Shown here: one piece after another, positions 3,946 through 31,360 of the stretch
How the letters are laid out: each line of letters starts with the position of its first letter
Position numbering within the stretch: the first letter of the stretch is position 1
Origin: a virus
Virus record (IMG/VR): IMGVR_UViG_3300042485_002397
Coordinates: 1-34,051 of that record
Strand: one strand, 5' to 3'
Length of the DNA: 34,051 bases
Position numbers and translations under genes: made by a program
The notes under the pieces: generated by a model
What the model was told of the DNA's origin: nothing
The model's database searches: none
The model's input: the letters and a program-made list of their open reading frames with translations, nothing else

Positions 3946-4597
3946 CCTCTTCCTCCTCAAGCACGGCCTCGGTGACGGGTTCATCCTCGCCTTCGAGGCT
4001 CTGCTCCACCTGCTGCGGCGTCACATCAATGATCGGGCTGCCATTGCCGTAGAGCTTCTTGATTTCCTCAAGCTTACGCATGACCTCTTCCTTGCTCATA
4101 GAATCGATCGTGCCGTGCCGAATCTCCTTGCGATCGATGTAGATCGTGCCAAGGGCTTGCCCGCGGCGGTACTCGGCCTGTACGGCTGCGCCGAACGCGC
4201 CCGCGGACAGGGCTTGATCCCGGATGACCTGAAGGTCACGCATATGCCGCTCGTAGGTCGTGCCGTACTTCTCGGCCATCTCTGCCCGCAGCCTCTGGAT
4301 CTCCGACACAATGTGCGGGTTGATGTTCGGATCGGTCAGCGACTCGGCGTAGTACTTGACCCTTTTTTCGGGATACCCCGCCCGCAGGGCCGCCTCCTTA
4401 GCGGTGACGTGCCCATCGCCCGACACGAACTCGTTGACGAACTTCCATTCCTGGGTGGTCAGGGCCTGATCCCGTCTTTTCGACTTGCTGTTTTTCTTGC
4501 CTACCGCCGGAACGGGCTGGTTGACCTTGTTCAGCGTTGTTTGGGGGATGCCTCGCCCGACACGGGCCATGAACGCATCTTCCTTCTTGCTGCTCAC
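3869..4597 (-). CDS. terS: terminase small subunit
   Basis: A 242-residue protein with features of a phage terminase small subunit (Terminase_2-like), which recognises DNA for packaging. Residues 40-85 carry the DNA-binding part, LTTQEWKFVNEFVSGDG followed by KEAALRAGY and ADP-like SLTDPNINPHIVSEI. Then come an AEKYGTTYERHMRDL helical region and an acidic tail rich in Glu. The GTG at 4597 is preferred: it overlaps the upstream TGA as GTGA and has GGAGG five bases upstream. An in-frame ATG at 4570 would shorten the protein by nine residues. The large subunit is not in the window. The AT-rich region at 4810-5247, one small gene upstream, is where a pac or cos site might be sought. Confidence 0.85.
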   Translation of the reverse strand: MSSKKEDAFMARVGRGIPQTTLNKVNQPVPAVGKKNSKSKRRDQALTTQEWKFVNEFVSGDGHVTAKEAALRAGYPEKRVKYYAESLTDPNINPHIVSEIQRLRAEMAEKYGTTYERHMRDLQVIRDQALSAGAFGAAVQAEYRRGQALGTIYIDRKEIRHGTIDSMSKEEVMRKLEEIKKLYGNGSPIIDVTPQQVEQSLEGEDEPVTEAVLEEEEDAGEARDEVVSTAERKPPKLPYYPD

Positions 4598-8046: not shown

Positions 8047-8376
8047 TCATTTGAAACCGTATTCCTTGAGCATGGCCGGGGTCGCGTAATAGCGCAGCAC
8101 TGTTTCAACGGCGAAGACATGCCCGTTGATAGTTGCAATGTCGATATCCTTGTCCATATCGAAGATGCCGATCTTCTTGCCTGCCTTGCGATCCTTGAGG
8201 TCGCGGGAGAGGGAGGTGTGCAGCCCGACGAGCTCTTGGATCACGATCTGGTCGAGGGTCTCTGCATTGACTTCCAGAGAGACGGTGCTACTTGCCTCGT
8301 TTTTGGGTGTTTCGGACAGATATTTTTTAGCGGCCTTCTTGCCGAGTGTGCGTTCGAGCACGGCTTTGCGGTTCAT
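8047..8376 (-). CDS. conserved phage protein of unknown function
   Basis: A 109-residue protein. It has a basic N-terminus and a helical segment, IQELVGLHTSLSRDLKDRK. A conserved-looking end follows, GIFDMDKDIDIATINGHVFA then VLRYY, a pattern seen in small phage proteins near replication genes. Function is unknown. The ATG lies in the 20-base junction repeat at 8368-8387, where GAGGTG supplies the ribosome-binding site and the upstream TGA overlaps the ATG. Confidence 0.7.
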   Translation of the reverse strand: MNRKAVLERTLGKKAAKKYLSETPKNEASSTVSLEVNAETLDQIVIQELVGLHTSLSRDLKDRKAGKKIGIFDMDKDIDIATINGHVFAVETVLRYYATPAMLKEYGFK

Positions 8377-8387
8377 CGCGGCACCTC
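8368..8387. repeat. 20-base gene-junction repeat, copy 1
   Basis: Identical to 8592-8611. On the minus strand it reads GAGGTGCCGCGATGAACCGC, which holds a ribosome-binding site, the last residues of one gene (EVPR-stop) and the start of the next (MNR). Confidence 0.9.
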
Positions 8388-8600
8388 ACCCCTTGCGCGG
8401 ATAGCCTCTACAGTTCGTTGAGCAGAATTATCAGACTCGCACAAACCATAAACAATTTTGCAGCAAGCCTCGCGCTCATGGGCGGCAACGAGGGCGGCAA
8501 ACTTCTCAAAGCAATGCTCTGGCATATCGTAGACAGAGAAATCGCCGTCAAAAAAAGCCCCTGCCTCTTGCGCCATGCGGATGATGTCGTCGCGGTTCAT
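8373..8600 (-). CDS. conserved small phage protein with DDIIRMA start and AAHEREAC motif
   Basis: A 75-residue protein of a very common phage family of unknown function. The start MNRDDIIRMAQEAG and the motif FEKFAALVAAHEREACCKI are typical, as is the end AIRARGEVPR. The ATG at 8600 overlaps the upstream stop. A truncated 14-codon relative with the same start lies at 9551-9595. Both ends of this gene are set in an identical 20-base junction, so it could be swapped as a cassette. Confidence 0.8.
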   Translation of the reverse strand: MNRDDIIRMAQEAGAFFDGDFSVYDMPEHCFEKFAALVAAHEREACCKIVYGLCESDNSAQRTVEAIRARGEVPR

Positions 8601-8611
8601 CGCGGCACCTC
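8592..8611. repeat. 20-base gene-junction repeat, copy 2
   Basis: Exact copy of 8368-8387. The two copies flank the 75-residue gene in direct orientation, so recombination between them would delete or exchange exactly one gene and rebuild the same stop/start junction. Confidence 0.9.
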
Positions 8612-8878
8612 CTCTTGTCCCGGTATCTGGCAGTACGCTTCCCAATACCCTTTGGCAATCTCTCTGGCACGGTGCTTGTTCACACCTTCACGCATCAAAG
8701 TTACAGTCAATCCATCCACCCACCATGCGGGGGTCTTGCTCTCCGGCTCCGGCGCGGCGAGGTGGGTGCGGAGTTTGATCGCCAACTGCGACATCCTCAC
8801 CCCGCCAGCGAAAGTCCTCTGCGCGGCGTCGTGCGTCAACACATCAAGGCACTCGGTCAGCAATTCACGGTCGCTCAT
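8597..8878 (-). CDS. small hypothetical protein
   Basis: A 93-residue protein, not recognised. The N-terminal half resembles small phage helical proteins (SDRELLTECLDVLTHDA, RMSQLAIKLRTHLAAPEPE); the C-terminal half holds WWVDGLTVTLMREG. The ATG at 8878 shares one base with the upstream stop (TGATG), with AGGTG upstream. The last four residues (EVPR) match the end of the next gene because of the shared junction. Confidence 0.7.
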   Translation of the reverse strand: MSDRELLTECLDVLTHDAAQRTFAGGVRMSQLAIKLRTHLAAPEPESKTPAWWVDGLTVTLMREGVNKHRAREIAKGYWEAYCQIPGQEEVPR

Positions 8879-9096
8879 CAGAGCACCTCCCGCGTCGGGC
8901 AAACTTCGTCCTTTTCCTCATGGCGATTGATATACCCGCCATATGGGGTTGGTGGACGAAGACTCCTCCAATACATCGCAGCAGGAAGCAGCGGCACTTC
9001 GTAGGGGTATTTGCATCGCCCTTTGCCTGACGAATGAAGGCCGCCCTTCGCCGTCCGCTTCCAGTCCGCGTGTTTACAGCCTATGCAACCTTTCAC
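8878..9096 (-). CDS. small cysteine-rich conserved phage protein
   Basis: A 72-residue protein of a widespread phage family. It has a CIGCKHADW start, then GKGRC and a final CPTRE, so three or four cysteines and a histidine could hold one metal ion. PLLPAAMYW and GGYINR are conserved-looking segments. The start is GTG at 9096 with AGGAGGT six bases upstream. Function is unknown. Confidence 0.75.
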   Translation of the reverse strand: MKGCIGCKHADWKRTAKGGLHSSGKGRCKYPYEVPLLPAAMYWRSLRPPTPYGGYINRHEEKDEVCPTREVL

Positions 9097-9107
9097 GGCT
9101 TCACCTC

Positions 9108-9311
9108 CTAATCCCGAATGATTCGTTTCGCGCCGAGTTTTTTTCCCGGTAGTGGCTGTACCAAATAACCCACGGGAATTTCCGCAGGGATAAAGCCCTT
9201 CATAAGGTGCAAGGCATGGATCTCTGCCCCGCCCATTTCATCCGCAAGTAATACAGCCTCCTCTCGGGTGGCTTTGATGAATGTGACAAAATCTACAATT
9301 TTAGTTTCCAT
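9108..9311 (-). CDS. small hypothetical protein
   Basis: A 67-residue protein, not recognised. A strand-helix start (VDFVTFIKATREEAVLLADEM) is followed by a basic end, GKKLGAKRIIRD. The ATG follows GGAG at 7-base spacing and lies three bases after the stop of the upstream membrane-protein gene. Confidence 0.65.
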   Translation of the reverse strand: METKIVDFVTFIKATREEAVLLADEMGGAEIHALHLMKGFIPAEIPVGYLVQPLPGKKLGAKRIIRD

Positions 9312-9314
9312 GTC

Positions 9315-9554
9315 TTATCTCCACTGCGTTACAGCAAACAACAGCACAGCGATGAACATCAGCAGCACAACTCCAAGCATGATGCTGAGAAAATTGATCG
9401 TGCCGTCGGCTTCCTTCAATTTCTCTTGCAGGACAATAAGTTCTTTGTCCTTGAGGAACAGCGCGTTCTTGTGTAGCGAGTTCTCACGCAGCAGCTCCCG
9501 TATCTCCTGATTGAGCCGGTCCTTGCTGAACTCGGGCTTTCTTTCTGTATTCAT
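9315..9554 (-). CDS. tail-anchored coiled-coil membrane protein
   Basis: A 79-residue protein. Residues 10-50 form a charged coiled coil (LNQEIRELLRENSLHKNAL, LKDKELIVLQEKLKEA). The C-terminus is a transmembrane helix (FLSIMLGVVLLMFIAVLLFAV) followed by TQWR. This tail-anchored layout places the coil in the cytoplasm. Such proteins occur in phage early regions as membrane anchors; a spanin or holin role is less likely without an adjacent endolysin. The ribosome-binding site AGGAGGTGAAGC lies in the 14-codon remnant upstream. Confidence 0.7.
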   Translation of the reverse strand: MNTERKPEFSKDRLNQEIRELLRENSLHKNALFLKDKELIVLQEKLKEADGTINFLSIMLGVVLLMFIAVLLFAVTQWR

Positions 9555-9595
9555 GCTTCACCTCCTGCCATGCGGATGATATCGTCGCGGGTCAT
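9551..9595 (-). pseudogene. 14-codon truncated relative of the 75-residue gene
   Basis: The frame reads MTRDDIIRMAGGEA and then stops. It begins like the 75-residue gene at 8373-8600 (MNRDDIIRMAQEAG...) and then lacks the remaining 60 residues. The DNA similarity extends over the first 30 bases. The start and stop overlap the flanking genes as ATGA, and its end supplies the ribosome-binding site of the next gene. It is probably a deletion remnant kept as a translational linker. Confidence 0.65.
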
Positions 9596-9771
9596 CGGTT
9601 GCTTACTCTTGCCTTGCTGTGGAGCCAGCCCTTCGGCGTCTGCTTGTAGCCGACCGCGAGTAAGGCCTCGATCGAACGGCAGTTCCCGTCGACGCGCTTG
9701 TGCAGACGGAAAGCATCGGGCGAGGCGAAGACTTGCTTGCACTCAACGCAGCGGCGGATCTTCGAGATCAC
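9592..9771 (-). CDS. small C2HC zinc-finger-like phage protein
   Basis: A 59-residue protein. The start RRCVECKQVFASPDAFRLHK followed by DGNC gives the metal-binding pattern C-x2-C ... H-x6-C. The remainder, SIEALLAVGYKQTPKGWLH, matches a common phage family with the order Cys-Cys-His-Cys, Gly and Trp. The start is GTG at 9771, overlapping the upstream TGA as GTGA; its stop overlaps the following ATG. The perfect packing and the clear finger make it a real gene. It may bind DNA or protein. Confidence 0.8.
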   Translation of the reverse strand: MISKIRRCVECKQVFASPDAFRLHKRVDGNCRSIEALLAVGYKQTPKGWLHSKARVSNR

Positions 9772-9968
9772 TGGTCGCGGGCCTCGAGCATTGCATCGGC
9801 AAGCCTGTAGGCATCTGCCGACACATAGTACGGGGTGTTCTGCGGCGTGTGGGGATTCGAGAGGATCCCGGTCAGCGCAGCGGCGGCGTAGTAGTCGCGC
9901 AGCGTGATCCCGCCTTCGATCCTGGCGGAGCCTTTGTCATCGGTCACTCGGTCTGGAAATACGTTCAC
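9768..9968 (-). CDS. conserved small phage protein with ITLRDYYAAAAL motif
   Basis: A 66-residue protein of a common phage family of unknown function. The signature is GGITLRDYYAAAALTG followed by SADAYRLADAMLEAR. The GTG start at 9968 overlaps the upstream TGA as GTGA, and the stop overlaps the next GTG in the same way. Confidence 0.8.
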   Translation of the reverse strand: MNVFPDRVTDDKGSARIEGGITLRDYYAAAALTGILSNPHTPQNTPYYVSADAYRLADAMLEARDQ

Positions 9969-10201
9969 GGTTCTTCCTCTCGTAAGGTTTCAGTAATCTC
10001 ATCTTCAAGCAACATGCGCTGCGATTCGCTAAGTACTTTGAGCACATTTACTCGCGCTTTCTTGCCGTCCTCCTTCTCGAGCTCGGCGTAGGCGGCTTTG
10101 ATCTCGATCATCGCAGGGAGCACGGCGCGCTCCAGTACGATCGGATCGAGGATGTCGAACGACAGTTCAACCTCCAGGCTTATCGACGTACGGTGATACA
10201 C
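9965..10201 (-). CDS. small helical hypothetical protein
   Basis: A 78-residue protein, not recognised. It has a long charged helix (LERAVLPAMIEIKAAYAELEKEDG) and an acidic end, LLEDEITETLREEEP. The GTG at 10201 is preferred, with GGGAG seven bases upstream, giving a 35-base overlap with the RHH gene. A CTG further in has a better-placed GGAGG but is a rare start codon. Confidence 0.6.
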   Translation of the reverse strand: MYHRTSISLEVELSFDILDPIVLERAVLPAMIEIKAAYAELEKEDGKKARVNVLKVLSESQRMLLEDEITETLREEEP

Positions 10202-10616
10202 TGTTTTTCTCCCGGTTCTTTTCAATGCGAGCAAGTAGTTCGGCCTGTTTATAGGTCTCGTCGAAGAACGGTTCAATCTGCTCACGAAAGATCTGCGACA
10301 TGCTCTTTTTGTAGAACTTCGCGAGCTCCTTGAGCTTCGCGTGCACATCAATCGGAACCATGACAGCCACGAACTTCGCCCCCTTGCGCTTGCTCGGTGA
10401 GTAGCGGCCCGGGTAGCGGTAGTTGCGTTTGCGTCGATAACGCCAGACGTATTCTTGCAATTTCGCGAGTTTCTGCTTGGCCTCGGGATCAGTACGCGCC
10501 GCAAGACGGCGCATACCAAGACGCGGAAATGTCCGGTTGAACTCGTCGTAGTTCAGGTTCTTCCAGCGCAGTCCTTTGGGGACAGGCTTTTTTGGCTTCA
10601 CTGGTGGCTTATCCAC
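10167..10616 (-). CDS. ribbon-helix-helix DNA-binding protein
   Basis: A 149-residue basic protein. The centre holds an Arc/CopG-type ribbon-helix-helix: the strand AKFVAVMVPIDVH, then helices AKLKELAKFYKK and MSQIFREQIEPFFDETY (about residues 78-120). The N-terminus is rich in K, P and R (DKPPVKPKKPVPKGLRWK). The start is GTG at 10616, six bases after AGAAAGGAG. It is the first gene after the polymerase with its own predicted promoter, so it may be the regulator of this operon, and the palindrome at 3109-3124 could be a binding site. That link is inference only. Confidence 0.75.
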   Translation of the reverse strand: MDKPPVKPKKPVPKGLRWKNLNYDEFNRTFPRLGMRRLAARTDPEAKQKLAKLQEYVWRYRRKRNYRYPGRYSPSKRKGAKFVAVMVPIDVHAKLKELAKFYKKSMSQIFREQIEPFFDETYKQAELLARIEKNREKNSVSPYVDKPGG

Positions 10617-10641
10617 ACTATTCTCCTTTCTCGGAATGCTG

Positions 10642-10670
10642 ACTCTAGCGCAACGGCGCCTGCCTCGCAA
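10642..10670 (-). promoter_or_regulatory. Predicted promoter of the RHH gene and small-gene operon
   Basis: Minus strand TTGCGA (10665-10670), 17-bp spacer, TAGAGT (10642-10647), just after the PolA stop codon and 26 bases before the start codon at 10616. Confidence 0.4.
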
Positions 10671-12539
10671 CTATCCTTTCGCTTCTCCCCAGGACGGGCC
10701 GATTTCGACATCGACCCGGGAGGGGACTTCGAGGGTGACGGCCTCTTGCATGATCCGTGACGCGTGGTCCGCGTCACTTCGCTCATTAACACTGATAGCG
10801 ATTTCGTCATGCACTTGGAGGAGCAGGCGGTGCCCTGCTTTATGCAGCGCGACCATTGCGGCCTTGGTCTGATCGGCTGCGGAGCCTTGGATCAGGCGAT
10901 TCAAGCCTTTGTATGTCATCGCACGCTTGATCCGTGAGCCGTATTCGATGACGGCTTGTTCGCGCGGCAGGGCTTTGTTGATGCCGTACTCGACGGGTTC
11001 CCAGAGCGGGAAGCGGCACTTGCGGCCGAGTAGCGTGCGGATCGAGCCGCCGGAGGCGGGGTGTTCGATGCGGCGCATGACGGCGTCGATTGTGCCGCGA
11101 AGGAAGGGGACCTTGGAGTGGAAGGTGCCGATGAGTTCGGCGGCCTCGTCCAGGGGCAAGTCGAGGGAGTTGGCGAGCTTTTGCTTGCCCATTCCGTACA
11201 TCAGCCCGAGTCCGATGGTCTTGGCGGCTTTGCGTTTGATCCCTGCCATATCTGCCACCATTTGGTGGAAGTCGGTGTTGGGGTCGCTGCGGTATGCATC
11301 CGCCATGCGTTCCGCTCCTGGTAGACCGAGAAGGGTAGCGTAGTGGACGAGAAGCCGAGGCTCTTGTGAGCTGAAGTCATTGGCTGCCCAAAGCTGTCCT
11401 TGTTCAGGCAGGAAAAGCGAGCGTACCAGGGGACCGATGATTTCATGGCGAGCCGGCACCTGTTGGAGGTTAGGGTTGTTCATGGAGAGGCGCCCGGTGA
11501 CGGTACCGCCGTCCTCGGAGCGCATCTGGTTGATATGCGGGTGGATCCGGCCGTCAACGGCGCTATGTCGAAGGTATGGCTCGAGAAAAGTTCCGTGGGT
11601 CTTGTTGAATTCTCGGGCTTCGATGATGAGCTTGGCCACAGGGTGGTCATGGCTATCGAGGAAGGTCTTCGTGAAGCTCGGCAGGCCTGTGGTGGTCTTG
11701 GGGTAGGGCAGGCCCATCTTGTCGAAGGCCTTGGCGATGCTGGCAGCGGCCCAGATATCGACCTTCTCGCCGGAGAGGGACTTGATCTGTTTGATGTGCT
11801 CGAGTTCCTTACGCTTGAACTCGTCGATGAGCTGCTCGCACTTCGGGCGGTCGAAGCGGATGCCCTGGAAGGTCAGATCGATGATGATAGGGAGGAGTTC
11901 GGTCTCGAGGTTGAAGATCGACTCGACTTCGTCCTTCTTGATGAGCGTCTTCAGGTGGTGCCAGAGCTTGAGCGTCAGCGCCGCGTCCTGCTCGGCGTAG
12001 TCCCCGACATACATGGCGGGGAGTTTCCAGAGCTCCTTCTTGGCGTGTACGCCGAAGTCGGAGGCGGCGTCCTTCAACCCCTGTTCGGACTTGACCTCCT
12101 TGAGGTAGTCGAAGCCGAGTGAGTTAAGCGCGTAGCTATAGCGGTTCTCATCGATCAGCGGGGCGGCGAGCATGGTGTCATAGACGGTACCATTGACCGT
12201 GAACCCTGATGCCCGGAGCCAGCCGAGATCGTATGCAGCGTTATGCATAATCTTGTCGCAGGGCAGTTCGAGCACCTTCTTGACCCAGCGCTCGACGATC
12301 CGCTTGTCGAGGTTCCCGCCCCCCTGGTGGGCAACGGGGAAGTAGCCCTTCCAGCCATCTACCGCGATCGCGTAGCCGACGATATAGCCATCCTTCCGGG
12401 GCCATCCTGGCCCCATCGATTCCATGTGGGGGTCACAGGTTTCGAGGTCGATCGCGATTTCTGCTGCGGCAGAGAGATCGGGGAAGGTAGCAGGCGGCGT
12501 CCACTCGGACGGGCGCTGGAACATGGGGACAGTTCTCAC
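10671..12539 (-). CDS. polA: family A DNA polymerase
   Basis: A 622-residue DNA polymerase I-type replicase with proofreading domain. Exonuclease motifs are D31-L-E33, HNAAYD (99-104) and YAEQD (181-185). Polymerase motif A is NDFSSQEPRLL with D388, motif B is R436-KAA-K440-TIG-L444-GLM-Y448, QGSAAD lies at 551-556, and motif C is VHDE (576-579). Residue 444 corresponds to Phe762 of E. coli Pol I and is leucine here. The length fits phage PolA without the 5'-exonuclease domain. The start is taken as GTG at 12539, which overlaps the helicase TGA; an in-frame ATG at 12524 is possible. It extends primers at the phage fork with the neighbouring helicase and primase. Confidence 0.95.
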   Translation of the reverse strand: MRTVPMFQRPSEWTPPATFPDLSAAAEIAIDLETCDPHMESMGPGWPRKDGYIVGYAIAVDGWKGYFPVAHQGGGNLDKRIVERWVKKVLELPCDKIMHNAAYDLGWLRASGFTVNGTVYDTMLAAPLIDENRYSYALNSLGFDYLKEVKSEQGLKDAASDFGVHAKKELWKLPAMYVGDYAEQDAALTLKLWHHLKTLIKKDEVESIFNLETELLPIIIDLTFQGIRFDRPKCEQLIDEFKRKELEHIKQIKSLSGEKVDIWAAASIAKAFDKMGLPYPKTTTGLPSFTKTFLDSHDHPVAKLIIEAREFNKTHGTFLEPYLRHSAVDGRIHPHINQMRSEDGGTVTGRLSMNNPNLQQVPARHEIIGPLVRSLFLPEQGQLWAANDFSSQEPRLLVHYATLLGLPGAERMADAYRSDPNTDFHQMVADMAGIKRKAAKTIGLGLMYGMGKQKLANSLDLPLDEAAELIGTFHSKVPFLRGTIDAVMRRIEHPASGGSIRTLLGRKCRFPLWEPVEYGINKALPREQAVIEYGSRIKRAMTYKGLNRLIQGSAADQTKAAMVALHKAGHRLLLQVHDEIAISVNERSDADHASRIMQEAVTLEVPSRVDVEIGPSWGEAKG

Positions 12540-14854
12540 AATCTAAAAGCCTTCTGTGCGTTCTTGGGTAAAACGATATGGAGTGCATGCTTGGCGCGGG
12601 TCACTCCGACATAAAACAGGCGGTTAAGGTCATCGGCGTTGCGGTCGTATTCCTTCGCAAACTTCGTCGAGAGGTCGCTGATGAGCAGGACATTGTCCGC
12701 CTCACCGCCCTTGGCGCCGTGGATCGTGGAGAGCTTGATGGGGACTTTGCCCGTGAGCTTCACGCCTCGGCGCAGGAGCGCGACGATGTAGTTTCGCTTG
12801 TCCTCAGCGACCTTGGTGAGCGCCTCGTGCCAGATGGCATCGGTGAGGAGCCCGTGGTCCTTGGTCAGCGATTCGTGGGTATACATCGCGTCCATGTTCG
12901 CCGCCTTGAGGCCCTTGTGCCCGTGCTTAACGAACTGCCCATCGAGGTACTTGTAGATGAGTTTGACCGTCTCGAACGGGACTTCCTGGCCCTTGCGCAG
13001 CCGTTCCCAGCCGACCACGGCGTGTAGCACGGACTCGGGGACGCTCCGTTGTCCGCCGCGCTCGAAGAGTAGGCCTTGGGATTTGATCCACTCGTGCATG
13101 TCCGTGAGCATGTAGTTGGCGGCGGCGAGCACGAGCCACTCGCCTTGGGTGAGGTCGACGTGGTGGAAGTCGTTGTGGAAAATGATAGCTCCGCCTTCGG
13201 TGCGGGGCTTCCAGATCTTCGGTTGGCGCTTACGGATGCGGTTGACGACGCGATCGGCAAAGGCGTGGATCTTGGAGGGGACACGATAGGACTGATCGAG
13301 GATGCGGATATTGCCCTCGAGGGTGAGGAAGCTATCGACATCGGCTCCCGCCCAGGTGTAGATGCAGTTGTGGGTCAGGATGTTGTCAGCAAAATAGTTA
13401 TGGTGTTTCTCTACTTCTAGGGAATAGACCGTTGTATTTGCCCAGGCCGTATCCACACTAAAGGGCAGCCAACGCAGTTCATCCCGGGCTTTGTTTGCTA
13501 CAAGCATGGCTTCGGGGATTAAGTTACACGCCCTAACGGCAAAAATCTGACTACCCCCTCGACGCTGCCGCATCTCTCCCCTGTCGTACACGGGGTGTTC
13601 GCGAAACTTACCTAGATCAGACAGGAGTCTCAGCGCATTGTGCTCGGTAGATAAATCCGCATGGACTTTATCTATCGCGGCGGACAAGTTCTTGTTCCCA
13701 GCAGGCCCTTTGAATACGGTTTGTGGGATACCGTACTGATAAGAAAGCCGATTTTCCCAATAAAAAGCCTCCTCGTGGGAGTCGACCACCCGTAAAAACC
13801 ACATTCGCTGCGCTTGTTCCAGGTGGGCTCGTACCCAAGCATGGACACACCCATCCGCCCTGAACAGTTGGCACTGACCAATGCGAAAGTTTTTCCCTTT
13901 CTGCATTAGGTACACCACCTTGAGATGGGCCACGTCTTTAAGAGGTTTCCAGCGAGCAAGGCAAAGGTGGTTGCTTGTGTAACGGGAGATGTTCCCACCG
14001 GACGTGACTGCGTGTATTGGGCCCGAGTACGAACGAGACGCTTTTTGAAAGGAATACCCGTTTTTCTTGCCCACAATGTAGGAACCGCTTCTGTCGTAAC
14101 AAACTAGCCGATGAAGGGCTGGTTCGAGCTGTTCAATAGAGACCTCCCCATCCGTAGTTAGTACGCGGGCCCCTGCGGGCTGGCACTGGTCATCGTCTCC
14201 TGCTATGTACATGCTCGAACACCTCTCTATTAAGGCTTTTACCAGCCTCCATTGTAGCCTAGAAAGGTCTTGCGCTTCATCAATTATCACCGTTGCCAGC
14301 CTGGGCAGCCGCTCCGGCTCATCGACCACGCGCTCAAGAAGATCGGTAAAATCCAACAGCCCCCGGGAGGCTTTGTAATGTCTGTAAGCTCTGTCAACGT
14401 ACTCGAAGTGGAACCACTCGATCGTCATGCCGCTTTCGTTGTAATGCTGGCGCAGGTCCTTGCCCTTGATCCGCGCGATGTTAATCTCGTTCAGGATCGG
14501 GTGGTCGGCCTTGATGGCAAACTCCTCGTCTCCCTGCTCAACGGCGAGCTCGATCCCCGCTTCCTTCGCGAACTCTGCGTAGTGCTGCGGCGTCATCATG
14601 TCCTTGGAGCCGATGCCGAGGCAGCGGTAAGCAAGTGAGTGCAGCGTACGAAACCACGGGAAGTCGAGGTCCGGGTTCAGTTGCGGGAACTTCTGTGTCG
14701 CCCGATCACGCGCTTCAGTCGCGGCTTTGCGAGTGAAGGCGTAATACCCGATTTGCGTCGGATGGACATCCGCAGCAAGTTCCCGTTCAACGACGGAAAG
14801 CAGGTAGGTCGTCTTGCCGGCGCCAGGGGGGCCGAATACTTTCTCGACGCTCAT
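12536..14854 (-). CDS. SF1 (UvrD/PcrA-like) helicase interrupted by an intein
   Basis: A 772-residue frame made of a 499-residue helicase and a 273-residue intein. Helicase motifs are Walker A GPPGAGKTT (8-16), Walker B VIIDEAQD (189-196), motif III GDDDQ|CIYTWAGA, motif IV LDQSYRVP, motif V LSTIHGAKGGEADNV and motif VI YVGVTRAKHAL. The intein lies within motif III, between Q223 and C497 of the precursor, so the unspliced protein should be inactive. The helicase unwinds DNA using ATP and probably works with PolA and the primase. The ATG overlaps the stop of the upstream gene as ATGA. Confidence 0.9.
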   Translation of the reverse strand: MSVEKVFGPPGAGKTTYLLSVVERELAADVHPTQIGYYAFTRKAATEARDRATQKFPQLNPDLDFPWFRTLHSLAYRCLGIGSKDMMTPQHYAEFAKEAGIELAVEQGDEEFAIKADHPILNEINIARIKGKDLRQHYNESGMTIEWFHFEYVDRAYRHYKASRGLLDFTDLLERVVDEPERLPRLATVIIDEAQDLSRLQWRLVKALIERCSSMYIAGDDDQCQPAGARVLTTDGEVSIEQLEPALHRLVCYDRSGSYIVGKKNGYSFQKASRSYSGPIHAVTSGGNISRYTSNHLCLARWKPLKDVAHLKVVYLMQKGKNFRIGQCQLFRADGCVHAWVRAHLEQAQRMWFLRVVDSHEEAFYWENRLSYQYGIPQTVFKGPAGNKNLSAAIDKVHADLSTEHNALRLLSDLGKFREHPVYDRGEMRQRRGGSQIFAVRACNLIPEAMLVANKARDELRWLPFSVDTAWANTTVYSLEVEKHHNYFADNILTHNCIYTWAGADVDSFLTLEGNIRILDQSYRVPSKIHAFADRVVNRIRKRQPKIWKPRTEGGAIIFHNDFHHVDLTQGEWLVLAAANYMLTDMHEWIKSQGLLFERGGQRSVPESVLHAVVGWERLRKGQEVPFETVKLIYKYLDGQFVKHGHKGLKAANMDAMYTHESLTKDHGLLTDAIWHEALTKVAEDKRNYIVALLRRGVKLTGKVPIKLSTIHGAKGGEADNVLLISDLSTKFAKEYDRNADDLNRLFYVGVTRAKHALHIVLPKNAQKAFRL
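13367..14185 (-). mobile_element. intein in helicase motif III
   Basis: Residues 224-496 of the helicase frame. Block A starts with Cys224 (CQPAGARVLTTDGEVSIEQL), block B holds T293-S-N-H296 (YTSNHLCLA), block F is VEKHHNYFADN and block G is ILTHN ending in His495-Asn496, with Cys497 as the +1 nucleophile. All residues for standard protein splicing are present. There is no LAGLIDADG motif. The middle (about residues 350-400) has EEAFYWENRLSYQYGIP, which resembles a segment of unknown role in some phage inteins. The DNA here looks poorer in G+C than its flanks, which suggests more recent entry. Confidence 0.9.
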
Positions 14855-15027
14855 GGTTCCATTGGCGGGGAGGGGAAGTATGGGGCGATCGCAATCATGA
14901 ACCGCTCGGGCTCTTCCTGGCGCTTATCGTCCGCGTCGCGATAGTCGTCGTACACGCCGACGACGAGGCTGCCGTGGTCGAGCGCGACATACAGGACGAC
15001 GAACACCATGCGCTGGTGGTCATTCAC
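14851..15027 (-). CDS. small conserved phage protein
   Basis: A 58-residue protein, not recognised with certainty. It looks like a small beta-alpha domain (MVFVVLYVALDHGSLVVGVY followed by DDYRDADDKRQ). The GTG at 15027 overlaps the upstream stop by eight bases; an ATG at 15009 lacks a ribosome-binding site. The stop overlaps the helicase ATG. Confidence 0.6.
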   Translation of the reverse strand: MNDHQRMVFVVLYVALDHGSLVVGVYDDYRDADDKRQEEPERFMIAIAPYFPSPPMEP

Positions 15028-15304
15028 CTTCTTGGTTCCCTTTGACCACCGCATTGACCCTCTCCATGTCGCAGGGCCAGACAACGATTGGCGTGGACTT
15101 GCCGACGTACCCGCCTTCGATGTTGTAGCTGATGTACTCCAGGGCCTCCTCGTGAGAGAGCCCCGACTGATGCATTAGGATCGCAACAAGGGCGTCGCCG
15201 TCGTAAATCAATGTGTCGACACGCTCTGCGCCGCCGTTTTCGTGCTTCTGCCACACGGTTGCGATACCGATCAGTGCTTTGTCGAATCCGTCCATCTTAA
15301 GCAT
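15020..15304 (-). CDS. conserved phage protein with MDGFDKALIGIA start
   Basis: A 94-residue protein of a common phage family of unknown function. The start MDGFDKALIGIA is typical, as are LIYDGDALVAILM, LSHEEALEYISYNIEGGYVG and TPIVVW. The ATG shares its A with the TAA of the primase gene (TAATG), and AGGAG lies nine bases upstream. Its place between primase and helicase suggests a link with replication. Confidence 0.75.
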   Translation of the reverse strand: MLKMDGFDKALIGIATVWQKHENGGAERVDTLIYDGDALVAILMHQSGLSHEEALEYISYNIEGGYVGKSTPIVVWPCDMERVNAVVKGNQEGE

Positions 15305-16836
15305 TAGAAGGGACTCCTGCTTTTCTTTTGTTCCGGTGTGTCAAACGGTGAGTCTTGTCGCTCAAAGCGCGGGATGCGCCAGCAGCGCACAGCCCGGTTC
15401 TTGAGGAAGAGGCTGATCGGCTCGCCGCCGATGTCGCGGATACGCTGCGCAATCTTCGGTGACGAGAGTCCTTTGAAGTTGTTGCGCAAAAGGTGCTGGT
15501 TCAGATCCTTCATGCGGAAGTAGGTCTTGCCCTCCTCATCGCTCGTCCACGGGCGGCCGAGCAGGATCTCGTCGCGATCCATCGCCTGCTGGAGATGGGT
15601 GCAGAACTCTTCGAGCAGGTCATTGAACTGGCCCGTGACCGTTGTGTCTTCGCTCGCGACTGTGATCTGTTCGGTCTCGACCATCTCGGTGAGCAGCCCG
15701 TTCAGCAACTGCTCCCAATCCTGCTTGCGCACAGCGGGGGGCAGCACGTTGAGCTTCTCCACGCATGCCTTTTGGAAGGCGATCTGGTTAAAGAGGCTTT
15801 CGGTGTCGAGCTCAATGCGCTTGCCATTGACATCGAGGAACCACAGCGGAGGTTCGCTTGCGTACTTTGAAAGCGCAGAGAGCTGCGGGGAGTCTGGCCC
15901 GTGGGCCCCGATCCCGTGTTTGCGGGTCCTGCACAGCCCACTATTGCAAAAGGCGTTAAGCGGTGCGTCTTTGCACTTGTACTTGTAGTCCTTCTTGCCA
16001 AGCTGCTTGATGACGACCTGGAGCTCGTTGTTCGGCAGCGGTGGGATGACATACTTGAAGTTGTACTCAAGGATCAGGTTGTCCCAGGTACCGGGATGCG
16101 CTTTCTTGAGGTATGTGCCGATCGCGAAGAGCGCGTTGTTCCGTGTGCCTTCAGGCACGCCCTGTGCGCAGATCGCCTGGAGGCATGGGGGGCCGTCCTT
16201 GACGGGGGTTTCTGCGGACTTCGGTGCCTCGGGGATCTTCAGCTCTCCGCTCTGCACGAACCTGTCGTACAGCGCGTAGAACTCTTCGAGCGTTGCGGCT
16301 TGGCCATCATCGTTGAAGGCATAGCGCATCGTGTCATCGCCCCCGAAATACGGGAGGTTCAGGAAGTTGCCGGTATCGCCGCGTTCGACGAGGATCTCGG
16401 CTTGCTTCGGGAAAATCTCGCGACCCGCTTCGCCAAGCAGTGCAGCCGCACCCTTGAGGTACCTCTGCATCTCCGCGGCGGGGATCGGCTCTTTGGTGAA
16501 AAGGAATACGTGAGCGCCGCCGGACTTGCTTCGGCAGACGACAAGGGGCAGCTCGAGGCTGCGGATCTTTTTGATCAGCCCAGCATGATCCAGAGGATAC
16601 TGATCAATATCAATGCATCCCCAAATGCAGGAGTTGTCTGCACGAATAGGGATGATGCCGAGCGAAGGCTCCACGCCTTCAAGATGCTTTTGCCAGAGTT
16701 CATCGGTCGGAGGCTTGCGAACGACAACGGCCTTCCCGGCCTGCTTGCCGCTGCTCTTCTCGGTCTCGATTTTGTACGTTCCATAGGCGATATCCAAACC
16801 CGTAAAAATCGCCTTGAACCGTGTGATATCGGTCAT
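15304..16836 (-). CDS. archaeo-eukaryotic-type primase (AEP, PriCT-like C-terminus)
   Basis: A 510-residue primase. The catalytic pair is D76-I-D78 in CIDIDQYP, followed by SKSGGAHVFLF (103-113) with the conserved S-x-H-type nucleotide-binding segment and EIFPKQ. This matches AEP primases of phages and TOTE-type systems, not DnaG or T7 gp4. After about residue 230 comes a PriCT-like region (GTRNNALFAIGTYLKKA, then CKDAPLNAFCNSGLC, a four-cysteine cluster). A C-terminal 150-residue part has no clear helicase motifs. The ATG at 16836 follows AGAAAGCAGAA, a variant of the usual leader. It makes RNA or DNA primers for PolA; the separate SF1 helicase would supply unwinding. Confidence 0.85.
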   Translation of the reverse strand: MTDITRFKAIFTGLDIAYGTYKIETEKSSGKQAGKAVVVRKPPTDELWQKHLEGVEPSLGIIPIRADNSCIWGCIDIDQYPLDHAGLIKKIRSLELPLVVCRSKSGGAHVFLFTKEPIPAAEMQRYLKGAAALLGEAGREIFPKQAEILVERGDTGNFLNLPYFGGDDTMRYAFNDDGQAATLEEFYALYDRFVQSGELKIPEAPKSAETPVKDGPPCLQAICAQGVPEGTRNNALFAIGTYLKKAHPGTWDNLILEYNFKYVIPPLPNNELQVVIKQLGKKDYKYKCKDAPLNAFCNSGLCRTRKHGIGAHGPDSPQLSALSKYASEPPLWFLDVNGKRIELDTESLFNQIAFQKACVEKLNVLPPAVRKQDWEQLLNGLLTEMVETEQITVASEDTTVTGQFNDLLEEFCTHLQQAMDRDEILLGRPWTSDEEGKTYFRMKDLNQHLLRNNFKGLSSPKIAQRIRDIGGEPISLFLKNRAVRCWRIPRFERQDSPFDTPEQKKSRSPF

Positions 16837-20112: not shown

Positions 20113-20816
20113 TCCCGATCAGAAGGCTCTACAAATACGAAAGACTTGAGCGTATCGACTCCCCGGAAGGCCGGCGATACCTGGATGGTAATGCGGTTGC
20201 ATTGCCGAGTGTGACCACGATCCTCTCCGGCACGAAGGACAAAGCTGGCCTTGACGCGTGGGCCGCGAGGGTTGGTGAGACCGAAGCGAACCGGATCCGT
20301 AACGAAGCGGCCACGGTCGGTACGCATATGCACAATGTCATTGAGCGCATGGTGGCGTACCGGGATCTGCCGAGGCCGACGAATTGGCTCATGCTCAAGG
20401 GCTATGAGATGGGGTACAGGCTCGTAAACGAGTACTTTCGCAACCTGAACGAGATTTGGGGCTCGGAAGTTAGCTTGCATTACCCCGGGAAATACGCGGG
20501 AACAACGGATTTGGTCGGGGTGTACCGTGATAACCCATCAATCATCGACTTCAAGCAGTCACTGAAGCCTAAGAAGCATGAGTGGATCCAGGACTACTTC
20601 CATCAGCTCGCTGCGTACGCATTAGCCCATGACTTCATACACGGCACCAAAATCAATCACGGATACGTGCTGATCGCCCTGCAATCAGGCGGCACTCAAG
20701 AGTTCAGCACGAGCGGCGCGGAGTTCGATCGCTACAAGGATGAATGGCTAAAGCGCGTGGAAGCGTTTAGCCAGGCATCGGCGGAGCCCCGCCCTGCATC
20801 GCAGCCGCCCCAGTAA
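20100..20816 (+). CDS. PD-(D/E)XK (Cas4/RecB-like) nuclease
   Basis: A 238-residue nuclease. The RecB-type motifs are GTHMHNVIE (74-82), GTTDLVGVY with D137, IIDFKQS with D150 and K152, and YFHQLAAYALA with Q169. This order is typical of phage Cas4-like exonucleases that take the place of T7 gp6 or lambda Exo. The ATG overlaps the end of the SNF2-type gene, so the two are coupled and may act together on DNA ends. The last 50 bases overlap the end of the large virion protein gene on the other strand; both encode Pro/Ala-rich tails. Confidence 0.9.
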   Translation: MVDLIPIRRLYKYERLERIDSPEGRRYLDGNAVALPSVTTILSGTKDKAGLDAWAARVGETEANRIRNEAATVGTHMHNVIERMVAYRDLPRPTNWLMLKGYEMGYRLVNEYFRNLNEIWGSEVSLHYPGKYAGTTDLVGVYRDNPSIIDFKQSLKPKKHEWIQDYFHQLAAYALAHDFIHGTKINHGYVLIALQSGGTQEFSTSGAEFDRYKDEWLKRVEAFSQASAEPRPASQPPQ

Positions 20817-23800
20817 TCGCATCGTTTGGGAAGAGCTGCTGAAGCATCATCCGGCTCTGAGAGGTCGGCGGCGCCCCGCCGCCTCCACCAGCCGGGGGCG
20901 CGCCACCCGTCGGGGGAGTCATGCCAGGCACCCCACGGGTCGTGGGAGCTGGCGGCGCTGTGCGAATACGACGGGCCTCATCGCGACGGCGCTGGATATC
21001 TTCTTGGCGCTGCTCAGTGATGTTCAGCGCAGGGATCACGGCACGCTGGCCGGTGCTTACGAGGATGCCGGCGGCGTTTAGCTGCTCCTGTACATCACGC
21101 AAGAACGCAAGTTTCTCTTGATCCGTGCGGCCCTTGCGCAGGAGCGCGGCCATGAGCTTCGGATCGGCAGCCGCTTCACGAAGGCCCGCGAGGGCATTGA
21201 GTCGTGGCATTTGGTTAAAGAGCTGCTGCGCCGTGTTCGACACGGCACTGGCCGCAGCAAGCGAGCCAGGTCCAGATGGGATCGCGGCCGAGCTGCCATG
21301 CAGCGCGAGCCAACGCACGGCAAAGACCTCGAGAGGGTTGCCGCCAGCGAGCACATTCTCGATAAAGAGCCGATTGGTCTTGGCGTCATCAATGCGGCGT
21401 ATTGTCCCAAGTATGCGACGGATGTTTTTCACCTCATCGCTCGTCATGAGCCCCTGCGTACGCAGGAGATTGACGATAGAAGGCTGCCCTGGGGCAAGTG
21501 GTTTGAAGAGGTTGTCGTCAAACGCCTTAACGCTGAACTGATTGCCCGTGCCGCCGGACTTGGTGTACGCCCACTCGAGGATGGATGACTTCAGGCCATC
21601 GAGCGCAGCTCGTGGCGTCTGTGATGTGTTAGCAACCGCAATCAGCCGACGAAGATCCGTTACCGGGGTGCGACTGGCAAGGATATCCGAAACCGCAGCC
21701 GTTGGATTTTCGCCACCGGCGAGCACTAGCGAAAAGTCTTGTTGGTTGCGCAACTGACGGGCAGCCGCACTCTTTGGATCGTTCAACGCAGCAAATGCAT
21801 TCTCTGCATCTAGTGCAGTCTTAAGGTCGTTCTTCAGCGAACCGAACTTGTTCAGTGTCGCTTCGTTGCGCGCCATCCAGTTAGCAAGCGCTTGAGCGTT
21901 TACGCGGCCGGTTTGTGGGTTGACGATCGTCGGATCCGTCATCGCAAGACGAAGCACGCGATCCATCGCATCGGTGACAGAGACAACGCGCTTTTGTGAA
22001 AGCTCTGCCATCGGGCGGACTGCATCAAGCTGCTGCTGGACAATGCCGATCTGTCGAGCAGGAGCCTTTGCCGCACGAAGCTGTGCGAGCTGCTGGGTGA
22101 GCGCATCAAACTGCTGTGAGAAGAAGCCCACGGCGTCTTCTACCTGTTCCATGCGAGCGTAGGTCAGGTCACTGTCGCGACCGAACATGCGACTGACCAA
22201 CAGCTCAGGCGGGATACGCTCCGCACCGGCCTTGGTCACCGCCGTGATATCGCGCGCATAGCTGCGGGTGAAGTTGTCGTTAAGTGACTTAGAAAACTGA
22301 CGGGCGCGATCGTAGGCTGTCGTATTGAGCTGCGAGAAGTCATCGAGGATCGACTCCGCCAGCATGCCGTACATGCGAGCGTCCGTCGGAGAGCGCTGGT
22401 TCTTGCTCGAAGCAGAGTCCCTGGCCCACCCGAGAAGATCACTACGAATACGGATTAACTCGTCGACATCCGTCTTGTTTCCAAGCGGCTGATAAATAGG
22501 CTTGCCACCGCGACCGCGACGGACCCCGCCGATCAAGTACTCATCCGGCACACGGCCTGTCTCCAAGTACTCTGGAGTACGCATGCCGCGCTTATATGAG
22601 GCAATGGCCGTCTCATTGACACCAAGCCGTCCCATGATCGAACGCAATTCGGCAGGCAGCGCCAGATAACGCTCCGGGGTCATGTTCGAGGCAACATCAA
22701 GGAATGAGGTCAGGGTCTTCTTCGGCAAAACCTGGCGCGGTACGATCTGGCCCTTCTGCACCTTAGTGCTCTGCTGATAGGCCTGTCGCCACAAGAGCTT
22801 TTCGTAGTCACGCGCTTCGTTTAGCGCTTCTTCGACATTGTTCTTGATTGTTTGACCAATCAACTGACGATTGGCAGGCGTATCCCGTGAGATACGGGAC
22901 ACCGCATTCGCCGCAGTGCGTTCGGCTATGCCAATACGACCGAGAACCATCGAGTCGTAAAGCTGTGACTGCATTTCCGCAGCCGTGCGCAAGGCCACGG
23001 GACTACCGATGTTACTAAGCGCCCCGATCAGGGCCTGTTGCGCGCGCAGCGCGGATCTTGCCTGATCGGTGCTCTTGGCACGGAACGACGCATCGCCACG
23101 GGCAAGGCTCTCTTCGAGAAGAGCAAGCCCCGGATCACCTGTCGCTTGAGCCGCGGTCGGTCGTGCGTCAGGCGGGAAGTCTGCCTCAAGCTGACGAATG
23201 AGGTTCTTGTAGTAGCGCTCGCGCAAAACCTGAGCCTGCGCAAGCGCATCAGGGGTGCCGAGTTCCTCAAGCTCCTTGATGGGTGCTGATTCCTTCAGCG
23301 TATTGTCAAGAATGCTGTAGAGACGATTGGCACGCGCTGTATCTACCGCAGAATCACTAAACTTCTGCGAGATCAGGTTTTTAACGACATCGTAGCCGAT
23401 TGTAGCGCTTTTAAAAAGAAACCGCGTGGGAGTGAACACACTTGCGAAAAACTCAGAGCCGAAGCGAACGCCCGCATCCCCCGGAAAAAACGCTTCGGCG
23501 GCACCGCCTGCTGTGCCTACTGTGCCCGCGATCAGTGCTTCTGTGCCAAGGTAGCGTTTTGGGTTGCGACGAGCGAGCTGGACTGAGTAATCGATGATCT
23601 TGTAGATGCGCGAGCCTGGGCCATTTGCAATACCGAGGGCCGACGGTGCCGTCATCAGTAGCGTGGTCGGAGTGGAGGCCAGGAGGCCGCCTGCCGTGAT
23701 CGCGCCTTCGCGATATGGGACGAGATCTTCGCGCGGCGGGGCAGGGAAGAAATCTGCAAGCGTATCGCCAAGCGCATAGCTGACCCCATACGCGCCTGCG

Positions 23801-24450
23801 GCAGCAACAAGAGGAATCACTTGCGCCCCGGGCGCCGCCGCAGCGATAGGTAGCGTCTTTGTAAATGCCAACGCAGCCGCGGCAGCAGGAGTGCCGTAGC
23901 GCACTGCACCTTCAGCCACGCCAAGGCCGACCTGACCCGCTTTTTCGCCAACAGTGGGAGCAATGGAAACCAAAGAAGAGGGCAGTGGCGGCACATCCTC
24001 CCGGAGCGGATCCCTGATCACGCCCATCAGTGAGTCAACGCCTGGCTCAGTGATTGGAACCAGACTCGGGGGCAATTCTGGAGAGGGGGCTAAGGCCCCC
24101 ATCGCTACAATACGAGGCGAGATAAGGGCCGCTTCCACAGTATCAAGAACTGAAGGCCCTTGGTCCGTGGTCGGTGCAGCCTGATCCCCCTCTCGTCCAT
24201 CAAAACGAATAACGCGGTCGCCTATCGTAATTTCAGAGATACCCGATGACTCGGGAGGAGGGGCAGAAGCTAGCCGAATGTCTCCGAGTCGGGAGAACAA
24301 TGCCTGCCTCCTGTCTTCGGGGAGGTTGTTGAAAGTCTCCGCATTCATCGCGAACTGCGGATCAAGGCCCAGGCTGGACATGTATCCACGCACAGCAGAT
24401 ACATCTTCCGGCGACATATCCTCAAAACGAAAACTGCCAGGCGTTGCCAT
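20767..24450 (-). CDS. very large virion protein, candidate internal (ejection) protein
   Basis: A 1227-residue protein, last gene of the virion block. Residues 170-360 hold several hydrophobic Ala/Gly-rich segments (AAAALAFTKTLPIAAAAPGA, VIPLVAAAGAYGVSYALGD). The remainder is long, helical and rich in Gln, Arg and Ala with coiled-coil character. The last 60 residues are Pro/Gly-rich (TPPTGGAPPAGGGGGAPPT). I see no catalytic motif such as a transglycosylase. The size, membrane-prone segment and place at the end of the virion genes fit an internal virion protein that enters the host envelope with the DNA, as in T7-like phages. The ATG lies two bases after the upstream stop. Confidence 0.7.
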   Translation of the reverse strand: MATPGSFRFEDMSPEDVSAVRGYMSSLGLDPQFAMNAETFNNLPEDRRQALFSRLGDIRLASAPPPESSGISEITIGDRVIRFDGREGDQAAPTTDQGPSVLDTVEAALISPRIVAMGALAPSPELPPSLVPITEPGVDSLMGVIRDPLREDVPPLPSSLVSIAPTVGEKAGQVGLGVAEGAVRYGTPAAAAALAFTKTLPIAAAAPGAQVIPLVAAAGAYGVSYALGDTLADFFPAPPREDLVPYREGAITAGGLLASTPTTLLMTAPSALGIANGPGSRIYKIIDYSVQLARRNPKRYLGTEALIAGTVGTAGGAAEAFFPGDAGVRFGSEFFASVFTPTRFLFKSATIGYDVVKNLISQKFSDSAVDTARANRLYSILDNTLKESAPIKELEELGTPDALAQAQVLRERYYKNLIRQLEADFPPDARPTAAQATGDPGLALLEESLARGDASFRAKSTDQARSALRAQQALIGALSNIGSPVALRTAAEMQSQLYDSMVLGRIGIAERTAANAVSRISRDTPANRQLIGQTIKNNVEEALNEARDYEKLLWRQAYQQSTKVQKGQIVPRQVLPKKTLTSFLDVASNMTPERYLALPAELRSIMGRLGVNETAIASYKRGMRTPEYLETGRVPDEYLIGGVRRGRGGKPIYQPLGNKTDVDELIRIRSDLLGWARDSASSKNQRSPTDARMYGMLAESILDDFSQLNTTAYDRARQFSKSLNDNFTRSYARDITAVTKAGAERIPPELLVSRMFGRDSDLTYARMEQVEDAVGFFSQQFDALTQQLAQLRAAKAPARQIGIVQQQLDAVRPMAELSQKRVVSVTDAMDRVLRLAMTDPTIVNPQTGRVNAQALANWMARNEATLNKFGSLKNDLKTALDAENAFAALNDPKSAAARQLRNQQDFSLVLAGGENPTAAVSDILASRTPVTDLRRLIAVANTSQTPRAALDGLKSSILEWAYTKSGGTGNQFSVKAFDDNLFKPLAPGQPSIVNLLRTQGLMTSDEVKNIRRILGTIRRIDDAKTNRLFIENVLAGGNPLEVFAVRWLALHGSSAAIPSGPGSLAAASAVSNTAQQLFNQMPRLNALAGLREAAADPKLMAALLRKGRTDQEKLAFLRDVQEQLNAAGILVSTGQRAVIPALNITEQRQEDIQRRRDEARRIRTAPPAPTTRGVPGMTPPTGGAPPAGGGGGAPPTSQSRMMLQQLFPNDAITGAAAMQGGAPPMPG

Positions 24451-24452
24451 GC

Positions 24453-26609: not shown

Positions 26610-26624
26610 GTATGCCTCAATCCC

Positions 26625-28556: not shown

Positions 28557-28557
28557 A

Positions 28558-30918: not shown

Positions 30919-30992
30919 AGGTGTCCTTTCCAGTTTGAGCCGAAGACCCAACAAGGGGTCGCGCGCCGGGAAAGGACGCGAAGGTGACTCGG

Positions 30993-31022
30993 ATTATGGG
31001 GTAAGTTGTCAAGTGTTGTCCA
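30993..31022 (-). promoter_or_regulatory. Predicted promoter of the virion gene block
   Basis: Minus strand TGGACA (31017-31022), 18-bp spacer, CATAAT (30993-30998), each 5 of 6 matches to the sigma70 boxes. It lies in the 108-base gap between the 108- and 786-residue genes, about 75 bases upstream of the start codon. The gap also holds a weak hairpin, GACCC-CTTGTT-GGGTC. Confidence 0.4.
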
Positions 31023-31026
31023 CCTA

Positions 31027-31353
31027 TTACGATCGGTCGATCTCTAAATAGGACAGATAAAAATGGACGCCGGCAATGCTTGACGTAATCGTAAGCACGT
31101 CCCCCGTCTCCAAAACGCATGGAATGCCGTTAAAAACGTCAAAAGTCGTGTTAACAGGCAGCGCCCTGTCCTTCTGCAAATAGTAGGTTGTCCCAGTGCC
31201 CGTGTGGGTGATGGTGATCGACGCCACGCCTGCGCCGACGTTTGTTACGCGCAGGGATCGCACCACGGCAGAGTTGGCCGCTGGGACGGTGTACAACGCT
31301 GTTGCTGTTGCCGCCGCTGGGACCGAATACTTGCGAAGGTATTTGTTTGCCAT
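31027..31353 (-). CDS. small virion-type beta-sandwich protein
   Basis: A 108-residue protein. It consists of beta strands with the pattern ALYTVPAANSAVVRSLRVTN, ASITITHTGTGTTYYL and LETGDVLTITSS. This matches small structural proteins next to tail or fibre genes in many phages. It lies seven bases after the stop of the fibre-like gene with TGAGG upstream of the ATG. It may decorate the fibre or tail. Confidence 0.75.
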   Translation of the reverse strand: MANKYLRKYSVPAAATATALYTVPAANSAVVRSLRVTNVGAGVASITITHTGTGTTYYLQKDRALPVNTTFDVFNGIPCVLETGDVLTITSSIAGVHFYLSYLEIDRS

Positions 31354-31360
31354 CTATGCC

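Follow-up and report, generated by a model that had tools for sequence, protein, structure and literature searches.

An intein with a putative GIY-YIG-type nuclease domain in a viral SF1 helicase gene and a co-conversion footprint in the flanking DNA

The interrupted helicase gene

The window analysed here is the whole stretch of 34,051 nucleotides of IMG/VR virus record IMGVR_UViG_3300042485_002397. On its minus strand it carries an SF1 helicase ORF of 772 residues (12536-14854) that contains an intein, and all features of this gene given below lie on the same strand. The N-extein of the UvrD/Rep-like helicase (residues 1-223, 14186-14854) ends with GDDDQ, and the C-extein (12536-13366) begins with Cys+1 (CIYTWAGA). 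The insertion point, GDDDQ/CIYTWAGA, is located in SF1 motif III, and UvrD helicase models of Pfam and NCBIfam match both flanks. Between them, the region 13367-14185 reads through as 273 residues without a stop (CQPAG...NILTHN), from Cys1 to Asn273.

Cys1, the first splice nucleophile, is residue 224 of the ORF (codon 14183-14185) and is invariant in a 56-row alignment. Block B, T70-S-N-H73 (13967-13978), is evident from the translation and the same alignment. In the intein model and in the alignment with mini-inteins the Hint fold resumes at the block N4-like sequence ACNLIPEAM (13505-13531). Blocks F and G, YSLEVEKHHNYFADNILTHN (13367-13426), were recognised with Pfam and NCBIfam; the intein terminates with His272-Asn273, and Cys497 of the ORF is the +1 residue. 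TIGR01443 matches the C-terminal block above its cut-off, and PF14890 matches it with an E-value of 6.6e-5, which is below the gathering score. An AlphaFold model of the intein based on the 56-row alignment has a pLDDT of 96.2 and a pTM of 0.90, and its predicted Hint part superposes on solved inteins with Z of about 20 and rmsd of 1.6-1.8 over 131-138 residues. The element thus has the features of a class-1 intein, namely Cys1, TxxH, His-Asn, Cys at +1, a predicted Hint fold and empty alleles at the exact site (see below).

The original prediction had placed an intein with complete splicing residues but no LAGLIDADG endonuclease in motif III of this helicase. Its coordinates proved to be exact, all splicing residues are present, and neither a LAGLIDADG motif or family match nor an HNH family match was detected in the window intein or in ten relatives. 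The comparison of base composition that had been proposed along with it gave a G+C content of 52% for the intein and 58% for the exteins, with 56% versus 76% at third codon positions.

Elsewhere in the window, a primase-like gene in the replication cluster (15304-16836, minus strand) encodes a TOTE-type archaeo-eukaryotic primase domain (PF22548), and a matching primase is present in phage DSL-LC04. Six large ORFs (414-1227 aa) in 20767-34017 on the minus strand have no Pfam match. Over the stretch that was compared, positions 8367-15822 match IMG/VR contig 3300044641_007440 (15822 bases) without a difference; this contig apparently represents the same virus in another assembly.

The domain between blocks B and N4

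The room for an insert beyond the Hint fold that had been predicted does exist, but it is occupied by a nuclease-like domain after all. By alignment, profile comparison and modelling, intein residues 86-205 (13571-13930), located between block B and N4, appear to constitute a GIY-YIG-superfamily-like domain. Direct searches with the window intein gave no such assignment: Pfam, PHROGs and NCBIfam returned just pieces of the Hint domain and no significant GIY-YIG match, phmmer against the PDB yielded weak matches to intein C-termini and nothing else, and with the whole-intein model Foldseek matched inteins only.

For alignment, relatives of the intein were gathered from phage records, IMG/VR and bacterial genomes. 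The insert comprises about 120 residues with the motif layout VVYLM...FRIG...R119...E144. Among 55 diverse inserts, Tyr92, Arg101, Gly103, Trp129 and Glu144 are invariant, and Leu93, Met94, Arg119, Glu123, Ala140 and Pro154 are conserved in over 90%. Tyr92 of VVYLM (13910-13912) corresponds to the Tyr of GIY, Arg101-Ile-Gly103 (13877-13885) to YIG and Arg119 (13829-13831) to the catalytic Arg. Glu144, the equivalent of the catalytic Glu, is located in helix α2, EEAFYWENRLSYQYGIP (13724-13774); this is the segment for which the original prediction could name no role. In close pairs, dN/dS of the insert is 0.06-0.23, similar to that of the Hint part. The second GIY-YIG motif departs from the canonical YIG spelling, since it reads RIG or RVG in the inserts, with the Gly kept and the Tyr replaced by Arg. 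A basic residue at this position is also found in a T5orf172 member recognised by Pfam (L097, KIG). Because of the Arg at the second-motif Tyr, we refer to the domain as GIY-YIG-like and not as a canonical member.

Modelled alone with AlphaFold (pLDDT 96.3, pTM 0.89), the insert has the order β-β-α-β-α-α-α, which contains the β-β-α-β-α core of GIY-YIG domains. In a comparison with VIA-align 2 the best 12 rows were all GIY-YIG nucleases, with Z scores of 3.9-5.2, which are modest and in a range that, as the tool cautions, may reflect a common arrangement. Among these rows are BH0048 (Z 5.2, rmsd 3.1, 74 residues), Slx1 (Z 4.5, rmsd 3.1, 83 residues), the UvrC N-domain (Z 4.1, rmsd 3.3, 65 residues) and At-HIGLE (Z 3.9, rmsd 3.7, 79 residues); the best unrelated row follows directly after the 12 with Z 2.9. 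No GIY-YIG chain is among the best 50 Foldseek rows for the insert alone, which are chance matches, and the insert profile matched no PDB sequence. Since the Z scores are modest and GIY-YIG chains are absent from the Foldseek best 50, independent sequence evidence was sought.

For this purpose, GIY-YIG domains encoded in genomes that also harbour such inteins were aligned, and the resulting reference profiles were run against that of the insert with hhalign. The insert profile matched YhbQ-type domains with a probability of 84.9 (E 6.5e-6) and UvrC-type domains with 67.5 (E 5e-5), whereas its match to a reference alignment of mixed GIY-YIG types was poorer (probability 51) than those to these clean sets. 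Neither the YhbQ-type nor the UvrC-type score was reached by any of 200 column-shuffled profiles. In the profile alignment the Tyr of GIY, the Gly of YIG and the catalytic Glu are in register. Two Patescibacteria inteins with near-canonical motif spacing (GWRIGITNNLKQRL), L226 and L227, additionally emerged from about 1,170 genomes surveyed in three phyla. This pair matches the insert family of the window intein with an E-value of 1.4e-23 and YhbQ GIY-YIG with 5.9e-7. A direct match of PF01541 to L227 (E 0.0018) stays below the gathering score, and the window protein has no significant match to this model. Judged by its predicted fold and the putative catalytic Tyr, Arg and Glu, the insert may be regarded as a divergent member of the GIY-YIG superfamily that lacks the strict YIG spelling.

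A GIY-YIG relative could also have lost catalysis and now stabilise the intein or bind DNA, with mobility provided by general phage recombination. Such a loss would be in line with the Arg in place of the second-motif Tyr and with the weak structural Z, but the equivalents of Tyr92, Arg119 and Glu144 are invariant or nearly so across phyla and the insert is under the same purifying selection as the Hint part. Moreover, the basic residue recurs in the Pfam-recognised L097, and the flanks have repeatedly been replaced in association with the intein, as described below. We therefore consider a loss of catalysis unlikely. A chance resemblance of an unrelated fold, for which the missing GIY-YIG chain in the Foldseek best 50 and the missing PDB sequence match could be quoted, is scarcely credible in view of the best VIA rows all belonging to one superfamily, the motif register with its shuffle control, and the bridging sequences with a Pfam GIY-YIG match.

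The intein family and related systems

The GIY-YIG-like domain recurs in inteins whose hosts are helicases, methyltransferases and other proteins of phages and bacteria. The same SF1 motif III junction as in the window is occupied by 34 of 62 non-redundant inteins, and a position three residues downstream of it by another 5; N6/N4-type DNA methyltransferases harbour 17, and the remainder are found in single other sites. At one methyltransferase site, inteins with the domain (274-285 residues) and without it were found. The latter, L056 (149 aa) and L090 (144 aa), are complete mini-inteins, and the alignment places the missing part exactly between block B (HQFSV / HLWSV) and N4. Nearly all matches from the genome survey were traceable to an intein within a host ORF, two being fragmentary, and no free-standing copy of the domain was seen in the about 1,170 genomes of the three phyla.

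Canonical LAGLIDADG endonucleases come after block N4. Hence, the insertion point of the GIY-YIG-like domain, between B and N4, is a different one. We think it probable that phages and bacteria (Patescibacteria, Planctomycetota, Cyanobacteria, Proteobacteria, Bacillota and others) harbour a widespread, unnamed lineage of inteins whose homing relies on a GIY-YIG-type nuclease of their own, carried at the junction of blocks B and N4 and not at the LAGLIDADG site. If this is true, inteins would have acquired a further class of nuclease, and the Hint fold would have a second site for the insertion of modules.

Several members of the collection deviate in their architecture. In L054 an ORF of 1954 aa encodes one helicase with three inteins (in motif II, in motif III and at a later site), each with a VYLM...RVG domain. 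The intein of L044 (4001-4816) occupies the same helicase site as that of the window and ends with HN followed by Cys, but begins with Ala instead of Cys (GDDDQ/AGVLGTK); its splicing mechanism is possibly class-2-like or degenerate. The bacterial UvrD inteins L076-L095 as well as L010, L051, L055 and L057 have an extra 60-110 residues after the GIY-YIG-like core. This segment (e.g. LCGDRRG.TPMHRIS...SWRFET) has no Pfam match, is probably a DNA-binding module and is absent from the window intein. A phage protein of ~371 aa in L003, L004 and L005, perhaps a tail assembly protein, also harbours a Hint domain (in L003 at about 4373-4441). This domain ends with VHN and is followed by Lys, not Cys, Ser or Thr, so that ordinary splicing is unlikely.

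The closest known systems are the intein in gp34.33 of Bacillus phage SPO1, a UvrD-type helicase, and its relative in CampHawk. Both occupy the same host motif and site as the window intein, are 39-41% identical to it over the whole intein (41% for SPO1, with exteins 25% identical) and have the same VYLMQKG..FRVG..R..E domain. They have been annotated as inteins for years; the available annotation of the SPO1 record lists an intein only and names no nuclease domain, and the available text of the CampHawk paper (PMC3868849) likewise names just the intein.

LAGLIDADG inteins such as PI-SceI and PI-PfuI also combine a Hint fold with an embedded nuclease, and their homing cycle likewise involves empty sites and mini-inteins, but their nuclease is of the LAGLIDADG type and follows N4, whereas that of the window intein is GIY-YIG-like and lies between B and N4. 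A putative GIY-YIG homing nuclease is associated with the AceL NrdHF split intein (PMC7891396), where it is a separate gene between the intein halves, in contrast to the fusion inside one contiguous intein in the window. The group I intron nuclease I-TevI and the phage T5orf172 homing endonuclease genes (PMC10448857) belong to the same superfamily and to a phage homing context; they are intron-encoded or free-standing, not located within a Hint domain as in the window.

A 2006 paper stated that inteins lack GIY-YIG nucleases (PMC1564403), and later reviews (PMC7765530; PMC3943268) count GIY-YIG among the homing families, their available text giving no intein example. A phrase search of the literature, covering few subscription papers, found no report of a GIY-YIG intein; in the literature searchable in this way, this nuclease class inside an intein is apparently not reported. 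If the assignment is true, the family would account for the mobility of inteins in which no nuclease has been annotated, that of the classic phage SPO1 among them. Homing could then be tested directly in laboratory phages with compact (~275 aa) bifunctional inteins, for which the natural nuclease-free mini-inteins would serve as built-in controls.

Empty alleles, flanking DNA and mobility

Intein-free relatives, proposed earlier as a check, make up most of the near relatives of the helicase. All 80 near helicase relatives that were fetched have the uninterrupted sequence GDDDQ-A-VYTWAGA at the site, a count favoured by one search pattern that included the insertion site, and none of them carries the intein sequence in motif III. 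In the extein tree the window helicase pairs with the intein-free L203 (support 99/88) within a clade of six (100/100). Presence of the intein is scattered over this tree, whose well-supported branches cannot be reconciled with fewer than three changes.

Upstream of the intein, ~180 bp of N-extein coding DNA (14186-14365) resemble intein-bearing alleles. DNA identity to the nearest intein-free allele, L202, is 0.69 within these 180 bp versus 0.94 at 180-480 bp, and in the first 120 bp the three rows closest to the window are the intein-bearing alleles L015, L014 and L016. Sites separating intein-bearing from nearby intein-free alleles were taken as informative. The window shares the intein-bearing state at 16/30 of them in the upstream tract versus 10/240 outside both tracts (p 1.9e-11). 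A second, short tract of ~30 bp downstream (13337-13366), with 3/5 informative sites shared, includes the codon of Cys+1, which is Ala in intein-free alleles. Synonymous divergence between the window and the nearest intein-free allele is 0.83 in the upstream tract and 0.19 beyond it (p 8e-12), a step without parallel among 2077 control pairs of intein-free alleles. The step is repeated between L015 and L199 (0/1800 controls). The pair L014 and L196 points weakly in the same direction; since equally low values occur in 12 of 1800 control pairs, it is not counted as independent proof. Adaptation of the flanks to the intein was considered as the cause of their divergence and rejected: the divergence is highest at synonymous sites, which speaks strongly against a cause at the protein level.

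The flank pattern is a co-conversion footprint as expected of homing and indicates that the intein was copied in from another virus. Recombination with an intein-bearing allele is evident from the tract, but the tract does not name the nuclease, and ordinary phage recombination without one could in principle suffice. Since the Ala at +1 of the recipient is no splice nucleophile, a working insertion would require that the Cys codon is co-converted as well.

Very probably, the element is a class-1 (Cys1/Cys+1) mobile intein with a GIY-YIG-superfamily domain of the homing-endonuclease type between blocks B and N4, as sequence comparison and structure prediction both suggest. The helicase would be translated as an inactive precursor, from which the Hint domain would, according to its conserved residues (Cys1, His73, His272-Asn273, Cys+1) and fold, excise itself and join the helicase parts. 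The intein, released or still embedded, would cut an intein-free allele near the GDDDQ/A codon in a co-infecting phage, with Tyr92, Arg119 and Glu144 serving as a GIY-YIG-type active site. Recombination repair would then copy in the intein together with 100-200 bp of its flanks, including the Cys codon that replaces the Ala of the recipient. While the copying is backed by the co-conversion footprint, we infer splicing, DNA cutting and the start of conversion by a cut of the GIY-YIG-like domain.

The original prediction had instead regarded splicing as a possible timing control of the helicase. From the location in motif III it does follow that splicing must precede helicase activity, but a domesticated post-translational switch is very improbable, given that all 80 near relatives found work without the intein, that its distribution is sporadic and accompanied by co-conversion, and that inteins of the family are found in methyltransferases and other hosts as well. 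Timing control thus received no support. The scattered presence, the co-conversion tracts, the mini-inteins without a GIY-YIG-like domain and the unrelated host proteins point to a selfish homing element.
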